Assembly: GCA_021852245.1 (NCBI GenBank)
Contig: JAJZNY010000216.1
Location: 1-11,103, forward strand
DNA from: Planctomycetota bacterium
GTDB taxonomy: Bacteria; Planctomycetota; Phycisphaerae; WQYP01
Direction of reading: 5' to 3'
Length of the DNA: 11,103 bases
Shown here in pieces: positions 193-6,694 of this stretch (its first letter is position 1; every line of letters starts with the position of its first letter). The position numbers and the translations under genes are program-made. Below the pieces are notes generated by a model, which did no database searches, was not told the DNA's origin, and was given only the letters and a program-made list of their open reading frames with translations.

Positions 193-1206
193 ATGGATCA
201 CCCTCCACTCCCCCAGAAGGTAAAAGATTTTCTCGACTATCTGCAGTTCGAGAGGCACTTTTCCACCTACACCAGTAAATGCTACGGAGCCGATCTGAGG
301 CAATTTGGCAATTACCTTGCGGGTCTGCCCGATCTGCCGCCGTCGATTGTCAATTCTCAATCCGCAGCCGTCCACGCGCAGATGCAGGCCCAGGCCGCCC
401 AGGCCGCACAACAGCCGGAGCCGACGCTGGAGCAGATCGAGTCGCTGCTGGTGGCCGCGAGTACCGATGATGTCCGCCGCTATCTGCAGCACATGCGTGA
501 ACACAATTATTCCAAGGCGACGGTGGCGCGCAAGTTGGCGACGCTCCGCAGCTTCTTCAAGTATCTCAACAAGCGCGGCCTGACGGGCAACAATCCCATG
601 CAGGCCATTCGCACGCCGAAGCTCGACAAGCGGCTTCCCAAATTCATGACCGAAGAACAGGTCACCGCTCTACTCAATACACCCAAGGACACCGATCTGC
701 TTGGCTCACGGGATAAAGCCATGCTGGAAGTCATCTATTCCACGGGCCTGCGGGTAAGCGAGCTGGTCGGCCTGAATCGCGAGGATGTCGATTTTAATTC
801 GGGAGTGTTAAAAGTGCGGGGCAAGGGGCGCAAGGAACGCATCAGTCCCATCAGCCCCACCGCCATGGCAGCTGTGAAAAAGTATCTGGAGATGCGCCAG
901 CAGGTCGTCTCCGATGCGGAACCGCAGTTGCCGCTGTTCATCAATAAGCATGGCCAGCGGCTCAGCACGCGATCGGTACGCCGCAAACTGGATAAATATC
1001 TGATTGAAGCGAATCTGGATCCGGACATCAGTCCGCATACGCTGCGGCACAGCTTTGCCACGCACATGCTTAATCACGGCGCCGATCTGCGGGCCGTGCA
1101 GGAACTCCTGGGCCACCAGAGTCTGAGCACCACTCAGGTTTATACGCATCTGACCACCAAGCGCCTGCAGGATGCGTATGAAAAGGCCCATCCACGCAGC
1201 GTGTGA
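193..1206 (+). CDS. xerC: Tyrosine site-specific recombinase, XerC type
   Basis: Cytoplasmic tyrosine recombinase of 337 aa, expected to act at the chromosomal dif site with a Xer partner to resolve chromosome dimers. The N-terminal SAM-like core-binding domain covers about residues 8-130 and the catalytic domain about 150-330. The full active site is visible: R187 in TGLRVSEL, K211 in GKGRKER, H282 and R285 in HTLRHSF, H308 in LLGHQS and the nucleophile Y317 in VYTHL. The end, YEKAHPRSV, and the segment LFINKHGQRLSTRSVRRKL resemble XerC more than XerD. It is longer than the usual ~300 aa because of a Gln/Ala-rich insertion at about residues 46-88. The ATG at 193 is preceded by a GAGAGG element about 8 nt upstream. 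It converges on the toxin-like operon. A housekeeping role is inferred; a mobile-element integrase is possible but less likely. Confidence 0.9.
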   Translation: MDHPPLPQKVKDFLDYLQFERHFSTYTSKCYGADLRQFGNYLAGLPDLPPSIVNSQSAAVHAQMQAQAAQAAQQPEPTLEQIESLLVAASTDDVRRYLQHMREHNYSKATVARKLATLRSFFKYLNKRGLTGNNPMQAIRTPKLDKRLPKFMTEEQVTALLNTPKDTDLLGSRDKAMLEVIYSTGLRVSELVGLNREDVDFNSGVLKVRGKGRKERISPISPTAMAAVKKYLEMRQQVVSDAEPQLPLFINKHGQRLSTRSVRRKLDKYLIEANLDPDISPHTLRHSFATHMLNHGADLRAVQELLGHQSLSTTQVYTHLTTKRLQDAYEKAHPRSV

Positions 1207-1276: not shown

Positions 1277-1705
1277 CTACGGCTGTGGTACCACCTGCAG
1301 CGATACCACCCTGAGCCCATCGATATGTACCCTGCAGAGAGGCTTGGATTGGGCCTCCGTCGTAACGAACTCAGCCGCTCCGCCCCGGATTGCGGCGGCC
1401 AGATGAAGTGCGTCCATTGCAGAAAGCCCGTGGCTCTCCGCGATCCGAATTGCCTCATCCGTGAGTTGCCGATCCCCACTTTCGACCAGTTCGAAGCTGC
1501 CGAGAGCCGCTTGCATGAATTCCACCTCGTCGTGCCTTTTGTAATAACTCGGCTTGGGTAATAGTTCGAGGTGGAGGAAAAGACTGCAAAGGCCGTGCCT
1601 ATTCCCATCGGTAAGCGCCATGAACGAGCGGCGTCCGATCGTGTCGTTATTTCGGAAGGCGTTAATATAGACGCATGTATCGAAATAGGTACGGGTGGTC
1701 GTCAT
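1277..1705 (-). CDS. PIN-domain ribonuclease, VapC-like toxin
   Basis: Small (142 aa) PIN-domain protein, the fold of VapC toxins, which are Mg-dependent RNases that usually cleave tRNA or rRNA. The acidic active site is visible: D9 in TYFDTCVYINAF, E47 in LHLELLPKP, D98 in SAMDALHLAAA and E117 in EFVTTE. Length is normal for the family. The ATG at 1705-1703 overlaps the TGA of the gene upstream (TGATG), which indicates translational coupling; an AGGGAG lies a few bases upstream. A TTG one codon earlier is a less likely start. It is the last gene of a three-gene minus-strand operon, and the protein before it carries the antitoxin-like tail. Fold and toxin class are firm; the RNA target is unknown. 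Confidence 0.85.
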   Translation of the reverse strand: MTTTRTYFDTCVYINAFRNNDTIGRRSFMALTDGNRHGLCSLFLHLELLPKPSYYKRHDEVEFMQAALGSFELVESGDRQLTDEAIRIAESHGLSAMDALHLAAAIRGGAAEFVTTEAQSKPLCRVHIDGLRVVSLQVVPQP

Positions 1706-2136
1706 CAACTCCCTTGGTAGTCGCCGCGCCGGGCGCGCACCTCGGCCTCGACTTCCTCCTGCGTAAGAAACGTCATCCCGTTCTCGATGGCCCGCCTGCG
1801 AATCTCCATGAGTTTGCGCCCGAGCGGTGTCGTCGGCTCAAATTCCCAAGCCTGTGCTGCCCTGCCATTCGCATCGCGGGTTGTTGCCGCACCGCTTAAA
1901 TGCAACATGTCATCAACAGAGAGGGCTGTGTACCCCGCGCCGCCGAACGTTGGCGTCACGCTGGCGAACGCGGTGGGTGGGGTGGCGCGGGCAGCGCGTT
2001 CGCTTATCGCCGAGGCAAGGTCGTCAAATCCAAGGCGTCCCTCGACCACGAAGTCGAGGGACTGTTCCCCCGTCATTTGGCTGCCGAGGTATTCATATTC
2101 GAGGCAGCTTGCCTCCTGTAATGTGGGCCCTACCAT
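1705..2136 (-). CDS. Antitoxin-like protein, partner of the PIN toxin
   Basis: Protein of 143 aa that I cannot assign to a named family over its full length. The C-terminal ~40 residues (about 103-143: a TPLGRKLMEIRRRAIENG helix, then a short TQEEVEAEVRARRGD helix) resemble the small antitoxins found next to PIN toxins in cyanobacteria and planctomycetes. Such tails normally wrap around the toxin and block its active site. The N-terminal ~100 residues (SLDFVVEGRLGFDDL, then a Gly/Thr-rich stretch) are not recognised and are longer than expected for a VapB. No helix-turn-helix, ribbon-helix-helix or AbrB domain is obvious. The start at 2136 is supported by GGAG 8 nt upstream, inside the end of the TIGR04255 gene. 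It overlaps the toxin start by one base. Antitoxin function is inferred from position and tail. Confidence 0.65.
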   Translation of the reverse strand: MVGPTLQEASCLEYEYLGSQMTGEQSLDFVVEGRLGFDDLASAISERAARATPPTAFASVTPTFGGAGYTALSVDDMLHLSGAATTRDANGRAAQAWEFEPTTPLGRKLMEIRRRAIENGMTFLTQEEVEAEVRARRGDYQGS

Positions 2137-2139
2137 GGT

Positions 2140-2901
2140 TCAATCTCCATATTCCGGGTCAAGCGACTCGATCATCTCCGGCCGCAACAAGCTGAAGAAT
2201 ATCCGATGGGATTCGGCTTTCGCGCGATCGAGAAGATTTACGTGCTGCGCCCACGGCAATTCCCCATCGTTCACCGAGAATGCGGTCTGCACATTCGTGA
2301 GCAATCCGTCCTCACGGCCGACCCCTTTTTTGTCCAGTCTGACCGGAAACATCAACTCAATGGCTCCGGTAAAACATCCGGAAACCGTTCCCATGCGAAG
2401 ATGCAGTCCGGCACCAGAGGGCCGCTGCCCACCCACCGAGACATCCAAGACTAATTTATCCAAAACTTCCGTTCCGCCGGCGAAGAAATCCGTATACCTG
2501 AGCGTGCACTGCAGTGGATGATCCACCAGCTTTGACGCGGCAAGCCACGAGGCGAGCTCCAGAATGCGACGCCTGAATTCGGTCCATCCGGGATAAGGTG
2601 CTGCCGAACTCAGGGCAACCATCCGGTCGCCGACGAATGCTGTGTAGACGCCAAAGCGAAGGGCGTGGGTAGCGATATTTTGAAATGCAGGCTGGGCATT
2701 CCGTACGTCCGCCGGGACGCCGCTCGCCGGAAGCTGGGATAACTGGATATTCGGAAATTCTGTGCGGTATTTCTCGTATAAAATTCCCGGTAAGACGCTC
2801 CCCACGACGGTGTCGCCGCTAAAGCGCAAGGCCCACTGTGCCTCTACCAAGGGCTCCTCACGGAGCTTTTTCGGCAACCTTCCTGCACTCACCGTGTTCA
2901 T
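2140..2901 (-). CDS. TIGR04255 family protein, function unknown
   Basis: A 253-aa protein matching the TIGR04255 family as I know it. It opens with LPKKLREEPLVEAQWALRF (residues 9-27), has a VLPGILY segment (36-42), a short strand region ending in DRMVALSS, then APYPGWTEFRRRILELASWL (101-120), LRYTDFF (134-140), a variable beta-rich middle and a closing helix KAESHRIFFSLLRPEMIESL followed by DPEYGD (245-252). The family is scattered across bacteria and archaea, is about 250-260 aa, and has no established function that I know of. The frame stays open 50 codons further upstream to 3051, but that extension looks unlike the family. The ATG at 2901 has AGGAGA about 8 nt upstream, so I chose it. 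No signal peptide or membrane segment. It is the first gene of the operon with the antitoxin-like and PIN genes, with a 3-nt gap to the next start. Confidence 0.85.
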   Translation of the reverse strand: MNTVSAGRLPKKLREEPLVEAQWALRFSGDTVVGSVLPGILYEKYRTEFPNIQLSQLPASGVPADVRNAQPAFQNIATHALRFGVYTAFVGDRMVALSSAAPYPGWTEFRRRILELASWLAASKLVDHPLQCTLRYTDFFAGGTEVLDKLVLDVSVGGQRPSGAGLHLRMGTVSGCFTGAIELMFPVRLDKKGVGREDGLLTNVQTAFSVNDGELPWAQHVNLLDRAKAESHRIFFSLLRPEMIESLDPEYGD

Positions 2902-2903
2902 TT

Positions 2904-2917
2904 TCAGGCTCTCCTGA
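2904..2917 (-). promoter_or_regulatory. Shine-Dalgarno inside a small hairpin, TIGR04255 gene
   Basis: On the minus strand TCAGG-AGAG-CCTGA is a perfect 5-bp stem with a 4-nt loop, lying 2 nt before the ATG at 2901. The AGGAGA ribosome binding site is half in the stem and half in the loop, so the hairpin could dampen initiation. The stem is short and may be chance. Confidence 0.3.
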
Positions 2918-3229: not shown

Positions 3230-3262
3230 AAAAAGGCCGATAACGCGCCGCCCAAGTCAAAG

Positions 3263-3964
3263 TTGCCTATTTATTATGGAGTTGCGCACTCCGGCATCAA
3301 ACCCGGACGAACCCAATATAAGTGTGGCACACCGATTGCAATTTACTCCTGCCGACCCGACGGGTGCGTATCCCTCGGCTTGGCATTGAAGAGGTTGCGG
3401 ATCGTGCGATCGCAGAGAACCAGATTCAGTTCGGCTCATAGAGCGGGTGACCATTCGCAAAGTGTGTCACCCCTTCCTTATGGGGGCAGCGACCGAATCG
3501 TCTTTCTTCGATCACTCCCGCTGAGCAGCCTCCATGCCCTGTTGGTGGTGGCATGCACCATGGCCTTCTTTGTTTCGCTGGCCGGTGGGCATAGTGATGA
3601 AGGTACCTTTGGCAAGCGGAGCATCACCGGCCCGCTATCAATGGTACGGCCCGCTGGCGGGATCCATGTCGCTGCCACCATAACCCCACAAGCCCCGCCC
3701 GATTCGGGCGCAACCTTTCAGAGTACCATTTTGCAGGTGGCGGCAGCGGAGTCGCATGCGGAGAATCACACATCACTTGCATGCCGCAGTGGGGTGAGAG
3801 TCGATGCTGTTGTCGGTCGCGATCCGAATCGTTTGACCATCGCGGGGGAGATTGAAATCAATCGTTGTCTGGTCTTATTGCCCGGCCCATCGGCCCGGCA
3901 TCTGACGCGCTTCACATCAGGGTCTGCGCAGGTTCCGCCTGCCAATTTTCCCCGACTTTGCTGA
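3263..3964 (+). CDS. Uncertain ORF, possible small membrane or secreted protein
   Basis: The frame is open from a TTG at 3263 to a TGA at 3964 (233 codons at most) and resembles no family I know. If transcription starts near 3350 the upper start is impossible. An in-frame GTG at 3464 would give 166 aa, but no start has a good ribosome binding site. In the shorter version a hydrophobic stretch, LHALLVVACTMAFFVSLAGG, lies at about residues 24-43 and could be a signal peptide or anchor, followed by a soluble region of about 120 residues. Codon choice is only mildly like the neighbours. It lies directly downstream of the sigma-54 promoter, which is the main reason to keep it. It may equally be non-coding leader or decayed sequence. 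Confidence 0.25.
   Translation: MPIYYGVAHSGIKPGRTQYKCGTPIAIYSCRPDGCVSLGLALKRLRIVRSQRTRFSSAHRAGDHSQSVSPLPYGGSDRIVFLRSLPLSSLHALLVVACTMAFFVSLAGGHSDEGTFGKRSITGPLSMVRPAGGIHVAATITPQAPPDSGATFQSTILQVAAAESHAENHTSLACRSGVRVDAVVGRDPNRLTIAGEIEINRCLVLLPGPSARHLTRFTSGSAQVPPANFPRLC
3325..3340 (+). promoter_or_regulatory. Sigma-54 (RpoN) -24/-12 promoter
   Basis: TGGCACACCGATTGCA fits the sigma-54 consensus TGGCAC-N5-TTGCW exactly, with the invariant GG (3326-3327) and GC (3338-3339) ten bases apart. Transcription would start near 3350 and run right toward the uncertain ORF and amt. Sigma-54 promoters need a bacterial enhancer-binding protein, and NtrC-like sites lie upstream. Control by nitrogen status is inferred from those sites and from the amt/PII genes downstream, about 835 bp away. 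Confidence 0.6.
3445..3472. repeat. Inverted repeat downstream of the sigma-54 promoter
   Basis: GGGTGAC (3445-3451) and GTCACCC (3466-3472) are perfect 7-bp complements around a 14-nt loop, roughly 100 nt into the predicted transcript. It could be an mRNA hairpin or a protein site. No function is assignable. Confidence 0.3.
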
Positions 3965-4030: not shown

Positions 4031-4159
4031 ATGCGGCTTTCCGGCCGCAGGGTGTTGCTGAAGGAGGTGATGGTTGTCCAAAGTGACATGAATAGAAGAT
4101 TCCTATGGAGAGGCCCGTGCGCTAGCGGGAAATTAAAGTTCGTCCTTGTTTTGTCGTGA
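4031..4159 (+). CDS. Possible small leader ORF (42 aa) before amt
   Basis: An ATG at 4031 opens a 42-codon basic frame ending in TGA at 4157-4159, 25 nt before the amt ATG. Further in-frame ATGs lie at 4070 and 4088. The sequence AAGGAGGTGAT (4061-4071), fully complementary to the usual 16S 3' end, lies within it but sits too close to 4070 (2 nt) and too far from 4088 (20 nt) to be an ideal start signal for either. A 6-bp hairpin, TGCGGC/GCCGCA, lies at 4032-4049. Translation is unproven; the peptide resembles nothing I recognise. Confidence 0.2.
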   Translation: MRLSGRRVLLKEVMVVQSDMNRRFLWRGPCASGKLKFVLVLS

Positions 4160-4184
4160 TCGATTTTATTTCGGAGGATTGCTC

Positions 4185-5738
4185 ATGCGTCCAACCAAAT
4201 GGTTTACCCACAGAAAAATGAAATGGATGGCGTACATCGGCCTGATGCTGATGTTCACCATGCTGGCGGCCCCGCTGTTGGCCCAGACCGTGGCGCCCAC
4301 GCCGCCAGCTTCAACTCCTTCGGCTGCACCTGCTGCAACCGCAGCTCCCGCGGCCGCTGGTGCGGCAACCGCAGCCGCTGCAGCCGCAACACCCGCGGCC
4401 AGTGCGCCGGCGACAACCGCTCCCAATTGGGCCACACCCGCGTGGCTTTCGCACGGCGACACGGCGTGGCAGCTAACGGCCGCCACGATCGTCGGCATGC
4501 AAAGTATCCCCGGCCTGGCTATTCTTTACGGCGGCGTGGTGAAGAAAAAATGGGCCATCAACTCGGCCTTTATGGTCTTTTACGCCTTTTCCGCCGTGCT
4601 GATCGTCTGGCTGCTCTGGGCTTACAACATGGGCTTCGGTCCGCAATGGTTTCCATTCATCGGGCATCCAGGTCCCACAGCCAGCATGTCAGATGAGCTT
4701 GTACAGGCGAGCATACCTGCGGCCAGTGCAACCGCAGGCTTTCCGATGTCGGCGATGGTTTACTTCCAGTTTGTATTCGCCGCCATCACCGTCATCCTAT
4801 TTGCCGGCTCACTCTTCGGCCGCATGAGTTTTCTCGCATGGGTTATCTTCGTGCCGCTGTGGATGACCTTCTCCTACACCATCGGTGCTTTCAGCCTGTG
4901 GGGTGGTGGCTTCCTCGGACAAATGGGAGTCATCGATTATTCAGGTGGATATGTCATTCACTTGGCGGCTGGTGTTACCGGATTTACTGCGGCGGCCATC
5001 ATCGGCCCGCGACTGCCGCAGGACCGGGAAAATTTCCGTGCCAACAACATCCTGATGGTGCTCGCCGGTGCGGGTCTGGTGTGGCTCGGTTGGAACGGCT
5101 TTAACGGTGGCGACCCGTATTCCGCCAACGCGGACGCCGGAGCTGCCGTGCTTAACACCAACGTTGCCACGGCCATGGCCCTGCTCGTTTGGATGTTCCT
5201 GGACTATGTCAAATACGGCAAGCCGTCCGTTCTCGGTGCCGTCAATGGCATGGTGACCGGTCTGGTGGGCATCACCCCCGGCGCCGGTGTGGTGAATGGC
5301 TACGGCGCACTTGCCGTCGGCGTAGTGTGCGCGACCGTGCCGTGGTTTACCATGAACATTTTGGGCAAGAAACTCGCCATCTTCAAAAAGGTGGACGACT
5401 GCCTGGGTGTCGTGCATACGCACGGATTTGCCGGCCTCTTCGGCGGCATTATGACGGGTATCTTCGCCACGAAGATCGGCTGCGCCGCATTCGGCCTGAC
5501 CAATCCGGGCGGCCTGCTGGCGGGAAATCCGAAGCAGCTGTGGCTGGAACTCGTCGGCGCCGCATTCATCATCGGCCTCAACGTGGTGGTGACAGCGGTT
5601 CTGCTCTACCTGATCAAACTGTTTATCCCGCTGCGTATGTCGGATGAAAAACTGCGCGTCGGTGATGCCGCCGTCCATGGTGAAGAGGCTTACGGCCTTG
5701 CCGAGGACGATATCAGTGAAGGTGCGGTAACTGCCTGA
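4185..5738 (+). CDS. amt: Ammonium transporter, AMT2-like clade
   Basis: Inner-membrane ammonium channel/transporter of the Amt/MEP/Rh family, 517 aa, working as a trimer. The ATG at 4185 was chosen because CGGAGG lies 7 nt upstream; the frame is open a little further left. Residues 1-34 look like a signal peptide (basic start, hydrophobic core, APLLAQ), followed by a Pro/Ala/Thr-rich linker to about 82 before the membrane core. Conserved features: D251 and the first pore His H259 in VIDYSGGYVIHLAAG, F306 in GWNGFNGGDPY, and H413, the second pore His, in GVVHTHGFAGLFGG. The GFNGGDPY and ITPGAGVVNGYGAL motifs, with D310 where E. coli AmtB has Ser219, resemble plant AMT2 and its prokaryotic relatives. 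A soluble C-tail follows about residue 483. Two PII genes follow, so gating by PII is expected. Upstream signals suggest sigma-54 control. Confidence 0.97.
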   Translation: MRPTKWFTHRKMKWMAYIGLMLMFTMLAAPLLAQTVAPTPPASTPSAAPAATAAPAAAGAATAAAAAATPAASAPATTAPNWATPAWLSHGDTAWQLTAATIVGMQSIPGLAILYGGVVKKKWAINSAFMVFYAFSAVLIVWLLWAYNMGFGPQWFPFIGHPGPTASMSDELVQASIPAASATAGFPMSAMVYFQFVFAAITVILFAGSLFGRMSFLAWVIFVPLWMTFSYTIGAFSLWGGGFLGQMGVIDYSGGYVIHLAAGVTGFTAAAIIGPRLPQDRENFRANNILMVLAGAGLVWLGWNGFNGGDPYSANADAGAAVLNTNVATAMALLVWMFLDYVKYGKPSVLGAVNGMVTGLVGITPGAGVVNGYGALAVGVVCATVPWFTMNILGKKLAIFKKVDDCLGVVHTHGFAGLFGGIMTGIFATKIGCAAFGLTNPGGLLAGNPKQLWLELVGAAFIIGLNVVVTAVLLYLIKLFIPLRMSDEKLRVGDAAVHGEEAYGLAEDDISEGAVTA

Positions 5739-5820: not shown

Positions 5821-5900
5821 CCCGAATCGGCAAATGCCTGTAGAATCCAAAAATGCAGTGCCCGGCTTCAGGCCGGCGGCGTAGACGAGGTGCAGTATTC

Positions 5901-6254
5901 ATGAAATGGATCATCGCCATCATACAACCCCAACGGCTGGAATCCGTGAAGCTGGCTCTCACCGAGGCGGATATTTTTCGTCTGACCGTTTCGGACATCC
6001 AGGGGTACGGGCGGCAGAAGGGGCATACGGAATTTTTTCGCGGTGACCCATCCCAAACCAATCTGATCCGCAAGGTGCGGCTGGATATTGCCGTCGATGA
6101 TAAACAGGTTCAGCGGACCATCGATGCGATTACCCGCGCCGCCCGCACCGGATCTGGTGGTCGGGGGCAGGTGGGGGATGGCAAAATCTTCGTCCTGCCG
6201 ATTGAAAATGCCATCCGCATCAGCGACGGTGTTTCAGGTGCGGAGGCGATCTGA
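5901..6254 (+). CDS. glnK: PII signal-transduction protein, first copy
   Basis: PII (GlnB/GlnK) protein of 117 aa, a cytoplasmic trimer that senses ATP/ADP and 2-oxoglutarate and typically blocks Amt when nitrogen is ample. The ATG at 5901 starts the family's N-terminus (MKWIIAIIQPQRL) and has GAGG about 10 nt upstream. T-loop: GYGRQKGHTEFFRGD (35-49), with the ligand residues Q39 and K58 kept. Residue 51, the uridylylated Tyr in enterobacteria, is Ser here. The B-loop, RTGSGGRGQVGDGK (82-95), has five residues more than the usual RTGKIGDGK. The C-terminal ATP contact normally reading RIR is RIS (R106, S108). These changes argue against GlnD-type uridylylation and perhaps for altered nucleotide sensing. 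It lies after a terminator and before its paralogue. Confidence 0.95.
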   Translation: MKWIIAIIQPQRLESVKLALTEADIFRLTVSDIQGYGRQKGHTEFFRGDPSQTNLIRKVRLDIAVDDKQVQRTIDAITRAARTGSGGRGQVGDGKIFVLPIENAIRISDGVSGAEAI

Positions 6255-6340
6255 AACGAGGCGATATTTCTTTCGGCCGGGTGTAACATCTGTTGGGCAC
6301 ACCATGCCGGTTTGCAGTCCTTGTTTTTGGGGGTATCAGC

Positions 6341-6694
6341 ATGAAGTGGATCATCGCGATTGTTCAGCCATACCGTCTGGATGCCATCAAAATGGCCCTG
6401 AGCGAAGTTGAGGTGTTTCGCCTCAGCGTCAGCGACGTGCAGGGGTACGGGCGGCAGAAGGGGCACACCGAATACTTTCGCGGCCAGGCGATGCACGTCA
6501 ATCTTATCCGCAAGGTGCGCCTAGATATTGCCGTTAATGATAATTTCGTGGAGCCGACCATCTCGGCCATTCTCAAGGCGGCCCGTACCGGCGCCGACGG
6601 CAAGGGGCAGGTGGGGGATGGCAAAATTTTCGTCCTGCCGCTGGAATCGGTCATCCGCATCAGCGATGGTACCACCGGTTCCGATGCGATTTAG
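6341..6694 (+). CDS. glnK: PII signal-transduction protein, second copy
   Basis: Second PII protein, also 117 aa, collinear with the first without gaps. It keeps Q39 and K58, and has Met at position 51, the same five extra B-loop residues (RTGADGKGQVGDGK, 82-95) and RIS at 106-108. It differs from copy one mainly in the T-loop tip (RGQAMHVNLIRK against RGDPSQTNLIRK), the surface that contacts partners such as Amt, so the two may serve different targets. The ATG at 6341 was chosen by homology; a GGGGG about 8 nt upstream is a poor ribosome binding site, and the frame is open 16 codons further left. An 86-nt gap separates it from copy one, so co-transcription is likely. It converges on the vWA gene. 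Confidence 0.95.
   Translation: MKWIIAIVQPYRLDAIKMALSEVEVFRLSVSDVQGYGRQKGHTEYFRGQAMHVNLIRKVRLDIAVNDNFVEPTISAILKAARTGADGKGQVGDGKIFVLPLESVIRISDGTTGSDAI

Follow-up and report, generated by a model that had tools for sequence, protein, structure and literature searches.

What does a TIGR04255 protein do at the head of an operon that ends in a gene for a PIN-domain RNase? The question arises from three adjacent genes in an 11,103-nucleotide stretch of DNA (the window) from a Planctomycetota bacterium (GenBank assembly GCA_021852245.1, contig JAJZNY010000216.1), which encode, in order, a member of TIGR04255 (a curated family whose function is not known), a middle protein and a PIN protein. A first-pass annotation had suggested that this trio is a tripartite toxin-antitoxin or defence module. 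Comparison with other TIGR04255 loci makes it very probable that the trio and its TIGR04255-containing relatives are toxin-antitoxin modules. Because TIGR04255 is the usual first gene before an antitoxin-like and toxin-like pair, it probably helps to control many bacterial toxins, and this link offers the family a role that can be tested, in no fewer than six phyla. No paper naming TIGR04255, or the related names tried, was found in one literature collection.

Gene order at TIGR04255 loci

We read 103 TIGR04255 loci, 87 from Planctomycetota (the window included) and 16 from plasmids, defining D1 as the same-strand gene close behind TIGR04255 and D2 as the gene after D1. A D1-D2 pair follows TIGR04255 in 93 of the 103 loci, and the TIGR04255-D1-D2 order is kept in six phyla, the conservation across phyla that the first-pass annotation had named as a check. 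Its tripartite toxin-antitoxin idea is well supported, but the third gene belongs more often to another family than to PIN.

Genes were called from open reading frames (ORFs) with a codon score that gave a bonus to -3 overlaps, and some calls were corrected by hand. Rows with a stop inside TIGR04255 (L044, L049, L088), duplicates (L006 of L002, L007 of L001) and a contig-end fragment (G291:C288) were dropped. The letters ATGA end 46/103 TIGR04255 genes, 17/97 D1 genes and 5/94 D2 genes (Fisher p ~5e-11 for TIGR04255 versus D2; four of the 94 D2 ends are cut off at the end of the stretch), a count that is independent of the overlap bonus. The ATGA ends of TIGR04255 genes are a mark of translational coupling.

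TIGR04255 is present in 66 of 392 Planctomycetota genomes, a distribution as patchy as the first-pass annotation had described it. Patchiness would fit three genes that are neighbours by chance, or that hitch-hike in gene-poor islands. We consider this scarcely credible, however, given that the order just described is kept, that stop codons overlap start codons, that the trio persists at 43% TIGR04255 identity, and that PIN genes are far more frequent at these loci than in the background. PIN is the third gene at 10 of 79 Planctomycetota loci (some of them near-copies; the window and all loci in genomes G001 and G002 are excluded) versus ~0.1% of all genes, a background taken from 242 PIN matches in 59 genomes (270.8 Mb) if a density of 0.9 genes per kb is assumed. 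TIGR04255 genes thus lie next to PIN genes more often than by chance, as the tripartite idea had supposed.

Plasmid records (19 with a TIGR04255 match, including the 16 read here) add Cyanobacteriota, Pseudomonadota, Actinomycetota, Deinococcota and Bacteroidota. Two TIGR04255-like genes (L166, L167) were caught by a custom profile and missed by the NCBIfam search of the phylum; the family is therefore wider than its NCBIfam model. The trio of a Klebsiella plasmid had no DNA match in 5,426 E. coli genomes, and a search of plasmids with the D1 protein of L045 gave no match.

Existing annotations often shorten D1 genes at the start or omit them, for which the TIGR04255 link may account. In L095, L096 and L097 (at ~3258-3880) D1 is absent from the incomplete plasmid gene table and an ORF of 196-205 amino acids (aa) fills the gap, where a locus tag is skipped in L096 and L097. 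In L094, L098, L101, L106 and L107 the annotated D1 start lies downstream of the start called here.

The three genes of the window

The window TIGR04255 protein scores 66.1 bits against a curated NCBIfam cut-off of 30 and covers profile positions 2-251 of 252, in agreement with the family first assigned to it. The tight coupling noticed earlier is also present: a 3-nt gap (TGA-ACC-ATG) separates the TIGR04255 and middle genes, the second ribosome-binding site lies inside the first gene, and the middle and PIN genes overlap in TGATG (Table 1). The PIN gene starts with the ATG at 1705; a TTG at 1708 is a possible alternative.

Table 1. Features of the TIGR04255 operon in the window.
Feature	Coordinates	Strand	Basis
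Gene 1, member of TIGR04255 (253 aa), proposed as a dedicated, chaperone-like partner of the antitoxin	2140..2901	-	NCBIfam, AlphaFold2 model, dN/dS
Gene 2, middle protein (143 aa), probably an antitoxin by prediction	1705..2136	-	ORF; copies in L001 and L002; antitoxin-tail cluster
Gene 3, PIN-domain RNase, predicted toxin	1277..1705	-	PF01850, four acidic residues
Ribosome-binding site AGGAG of gene 1, before its ATG	2911..2915	-	sequence
Ribosome-binding site GGAG of gene 2, within the end of gene 1	2145..2148	-	sequence
Ribosome-binding site AAGGGAG of gene 3, within the end of gene 2	1709..1715	-	sequence
Fast-evolving N-terminal extension of the middle protein (~residues 1-97), proposed to bind TIGR04255 as an addiction segment	1846..2136	-	dN/dS, alignments
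C-terminal tail of the middle protein (residues 98-143), predicted to bind the toxin	1708..1845	-	conservation; same tail beside same PIN subfamily

The trio recurs in two other loci (L001 and L002), both from Planctomycetota, where it adjoins the same tyrosine recombinase gene (PF00589) that lies convergent with it in the window (193-1206). The window TIGR04255 protein is 86% identical to that of L001 and 43% identical to that of L002. Comparison with L001 indicates purifying selection, with ratios of nonsynonymous to synonymous substitution (dN/dS) of 0.17 for TIGR04255 and 0.23 for PIN. Farther along the window, two tandem genes for 133-aa proteins (5853-6254 and 6293-6694), which we take to resemble P-II regulators, follow a gene at 4146-5738, presumably similar to an ammonium transporter gene.

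No family in Pfam or NCBIfam matches the middle protein above its cut-off, and a search for similar proteins gave just two, one of them the window's own. Relative to L001, residues 1-98 have a dN/dS of 0.37 and the tail (residues 99-143) a dN/dS of 0.09, the tail being 96% identical. The protein can be divided into two parts because its N-terminal region evolves fast while its tail is nearly fixed, which sets apart the ~100 N-terminal residues that had stood out as unexplained. This N-terminal region aligns weakly to that of L002 (19 of 500 shuffles score as high). The protein clusters with eight other D1 proteins of the antitoxin-tail type, and the same tail adjoins the same PIN subfamily in loci that have no TIGR04255; the tail had been called antitoxin-like from the outset, and its sharing with neighbours of related PIN proteins upholds that description.

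The PIN protein matches PF01850 with 35.3 bits (cut-off 23.6) and has all four of the acidic residues ascribed to it (D10, E48, D99 and E118, numbered from the TTG), which are invariant in six related PIN proteins. We class it as a PIN-domain protein and not as a VapC equivalog because it reaches 18.6 bits against the 80-bit cut-off of the NCBIfam VapC equivalog model. The two genes nonetheless form a predicted VapBC-like pair, in that the PIN gene has an antitoxin-like neighbour with the C-terminal tail common to the PIN neighbours of this subfamily. Seven of the nine strong matches to the window PIN subfamily in 384 genomes sit at TIGR04255 loci. In one trio that is otherwise normal (L038, genome G250), the PIN gene (2597-2821) stops early and encodes 75 aa with no Pfam match. 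A pair with antitoxin tail and PIN but unlinked to TIGR04255 lies on a Planktothrix plasmid between BREX pglX and DISARM drmA (L122, 1705-2405).

Toxin-like partners and their exchange

Clustering of the D1 and D2 proteins gave eight multi-member D1 clusters. Each has a single D2 cluster as its partner; the exceptions are two of the 33 D1 proteins of the largest class (L078 and L083), whose D2 partners are unclustered. The largest pairing joins those 33 D1 proteins to a 31-member D2 cluster. Fifteen helix-turn-helix (HTH)-like D1 proteins pair with part of a 26-member D2 cluster with the motif Q-[ST]-C-D ('QTCD'), nine tail antitoxins (that of the window included) pair with PIN, and the smaller D1:D2 sets number 5:5, 3:3, 2:2 and 2:2. 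Three PIN proteins (L055, L059, L060) have unclustered D1 proteins.

The D2 proteins include PIN, Fic, MazF, zeta and HEPN. A Pfam scan of 93 D2 proteins (set A4) found PIN 11 times, DUF7689 five times, and PemK, zeta, Fic, HEPN and metallo-beta-lactamase once each; three DHO_dh matches come from a lineage with a stand-alone TIGR04255 gene (see below). Among the 93 clustered D2 proteins 14 are PIN proteins, counting L019, L058 and the truncated L038. HTH families lead in the scan of 93 D1 proteins (set A5), with HTH_23 in 10 and HTH_3 in nine. Neither set is identical to the clustered 93: A4 holds L046, L051, L056, L063 and L076 and is without L003, L019, L028, L050 and L058, and A5 holds L051 and L056 and is without L028 and L058. 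The D1 protein of L028 entered the clustering in shortened form.

The link to TIGR04255 also exposes toxin-like families that had gone unrecognised, including a large one for which an ADP-ribosyltransferase fold is predicted. This is the largest D2 class (L045 6232-6621 and 30 relatives), to which no Pfam match in the A4 scan could be assigned; its predicted fold is that of Tpt1/KptA, the fold of the NAD-dependent ADP-ribosyltransferases. Many antitoxins of this class carry an NWDGYGA-like motif, and two-gene copies that have no TIGR04255 in the stretch read also exist. The QTCD family (L093 3926-4768, L048 4063-4650 and 24 others) has a near-invariant Q-[ST]-C-D, often stands behind an HTH-like D1 and occurs in several phyla. 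At L089 (42-1079) TIGR04255 and one further protein are followed by a metallo-beta-lactamase-fold protein that matches the PADLOC models for LmuA and a reverse-transcriptase-associated metallo-beta-lactamase. PADLOC matches in the D2 set came from L089 (LmuA, RTasMBL, PDC-M48B) and L004 (SoFic, PDC-S04, PDC-S24), together with three untraced PDC-M32B matches.

The HTH matches bear on a different role for TIGR04255, that of a transcriptional regulator of the operon, like omega, beside an otherwise ordinary VapBC pair whose middle protein has lost its DNA-binding part. TIGR04255 is indeed first in the trio, no DNA-binding family of Pfam or NCBIfam matches the middle protein, and Foldseek lists a TATA-binding protein and a rolling-circle replication initiator for the TIGR04255 model, but these fold matches are weak (TM ~0.3). 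Moreover, TIGR04255 is kept beside the 15-member D1 cluster, although eight of ten members scanned one by one gave an HTH or HTH-like match (most of them under the Pfam cut-off). TIGR04255 is therefore not needed merely for DNA binding, and a regulator of this kind seems unlikely.

A quickly built tree of 101 TIGR04255 proteins has 26 changes of D2 class, versus 56.8 in shuffles; of the 19 class labels some, such as 'HicA-like', were assigned by eye. TIGR04255 is clustered by D2 class but has repeatedly swapped D1-D2 pairs. The tail/PIN pair alone has attached to TIGR04255 lineages at least twice, on branches with SH-aLRT >=95.

This exchange of partners among many toxins would also suit a protein that is mainly a sensor, holding an antitoxin-toxin complex from which a phage or stress product displaces the antitoxin, by analogy with CmdC and a phage capsid protein; CmdTAC works in this way (PMC11618068). 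TIGR04255 relatives occur on plasmids, with partial matches in three phage-collection records, yet none of the three window proteins matches a PADLOC model. We think it distinctly unlikely that sensing is the main role, although a sensor overlaps with an antitoxin partner and does not exclude it.

A candidate partner for the antitoxin

We favour a tripartite module in which TIGR04255 serves the antitoxin, and on its toxicity, binding, chaperone action and trigger we infer the following. The PIN protein would be an RNase toxin and the middle protein its antitoxin, gripping the toxin by the conserved C-terminal tail. TIGR04255 would be a dedicated partner that binds the extra N-terminal segment of the antitoxin, probably during its emergence from the ribosome, and may keep the antitoxin soluble or protected from proteases. 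Were TIGR04255 drawn off or inactivated, the antitoxin would be lost and the RNase freed. On the full mechanism, in which TIGR04255 acts through the N-terminal extension, our judgement is evenly balanced.

The lengths of the antitoxins fit such a role for the extension. In the PIN class 66-104 residues precede the tail in TIGR04255-linked antitoxins (n=9) versus 22-55 in unlinked ones (n=6; Mann-Whitney p 0.0009, with rows that are related to each other). The six unlinked loci are from two Planctomycetota, three cyanobacterial plasmids and one viral contig, and a TIGR04255 profile search of them found nothing. The unlinked set leaves out L123, which has broken genes, and a less strict pattern served to place the tail in L117.

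Several observations weigh against this mechanism. The nine linked antitoxins contain near-copies and amount to perhaps five independent cases, and the length comparison is clear in the PIN class only, start codons being unsure in the ADP-ribosyltransferase and DUF7689 classes. A hydrophobic N-terminal 'addiction' stretch fails as a general rule, with 21 of 92 D1 proteins passing versus 23.5% of shuffled sequences. Hydropathy by class is enriched for HTH (7/15) and tail/PIN (5/9) proteins, with 0/33 for the ADP-ribosyltransferase class and 4/35 for others, and a run of 13 non-polar residues is likewise raised in HTH (7/15) and tail/PIN (6/9) proteins, with 9/35 for others; the extension of the window antitoxin has no hydrophobic stretch by either measure. 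No common N-terminal motif emerged from 17 sequences of one TIGR04255 clade (Gibbs score 224; 216-231 when shuffled). N-terminal similarity seemed at first to track TIGR04255 clades (13 of 225 pairs versus 16 of 993), a signal that was gone after permutation, 223 of 2000 group permutations giving similarity as high.

The gene surveys add to this side of the balance. Pairing is looser in the QTCD class, because its 26 D2 proteins are spread over 11 D1 clusters, nine with a single member. In ten of the 103 loci no D1-D2 pair was called. At one of these (L076) the TIGR04255 frame is broken and a normal pair comes after it. Four others of the ten form one lineage (L046, L051, L056, L068), in which TIGR04255 stands alone beside peptidase and housekeeping genes, with an M48-peptidase-like gene downstream (by Pfam in two loci and by eye in the others), followed by dihydroorotate dehydrogenase in three. 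TIGR04255 of this lineage may have been recruited for something else.

The AlphaFold2 model of the window TIGR04255 protein (mean pLDDT 91.2), an alpha/beta protein of ~250 aa, likewise has no clear fold match in Foldseek or VIA-align; SecB is absent from the 50 matches listed by each, which leaves room for a SecB fold. The protein has no sequence match to SecB and no Pfam family at E up to 1, and TIGR04255 was rejected as a SecB by sequence on these grounds. A search of the PDB with the single protein gave no match at E up to 1; the family profile gave weak, unrelated matches only, and no solved structure was found. The weak fold matches of the model include S-adenosylmethionine decarboxylase and arginine kinase/McsB, such as might be expected of an enzyme acting on a small molecule or on the toxin or antitoxin by modification, a role that we hold to be very improbable.

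Beyond the window, a bolder proposal is that TIGR04255 constitutes a second family of chaperones dedicated to antitoxins, distinct from SecB, and founds a pan-bacterial tripartite class, whose antitoxins became dependent by gaining a fast-evolving N-terminal extension read by co-translated TIGR04255. We offer this tentatively and lean towards doubting it. If true, PIN, ADP-ribosyltransferase, Fic, MazF, zeta and HEPN toxins would be pluggable behind one sensor, possibly titrated by phage or unfolded proteins.

Comparison with known systems

The omega-epsilon-zeta systems have three genes, the first of which is outside the toxin-antitoxin pair. TIGR04255 loci resemble them in this respect, and one TIGR04255 operon has a zeta toxin, but TIGR04255 is a predicted 250-aa alpha/beta protein and HTH matches occur in some of the D1 proteins themselves. 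HipBST is described as a tripartite toxin-antitoxin system with a kinase toxin (PMC10627512). Like the window trio it splits such a system over three proteins, whereas its toxin is a kinase and not a PIN protein. HipBST is not known to include a TIGR04255 protein. Two-gene PIN (VapBC-like) systems share the PIN subfamily and the C-terminal antitoxin tail of the window but have no TIGR04255, and their antitoxins (61-96 aa) have an N-terminus that is shorter or different.

The SecB-type toxin-antitoxin-chaperone (TAC) systems, in which the chaperone gene comes last, also resemble TIGR04255 modules. Both these (HigBA1-SecB-TA and CmdTAC among them) and TIGR04255 modules have three genes, the dedicated third protein being shared by several antitoxin families that are unrelated to one another, and the TIGR04255-linked antitoxins of the PIN class have a variable extension longer than in their unlinked relatives. 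According to PMC5105189, the SecB chaperone is associated with separate antitoxin families, which carry an extension that is C-terminal, highly variable in length and composition, and missing from classical two-gene relatives; one TAC toxin is an ADP-ribosyltransferase (PMC11618068). TIGR04255 differs in that it is not SecB by sequence, its chaperone role being a proposal, and the window antitoxin differs in having no C-terminal chaperone addiction (ChAD) segment, since its C-terminus is conserved and its variable part is N-terminal. On our best reading, the TIGR04255 module would mirror a SecB TAC, with the partner gene first and not last and the extension N-terminal and not C-terminal, and might be a second way, independent of SecB, of making antitoxins depend on a chaperone.

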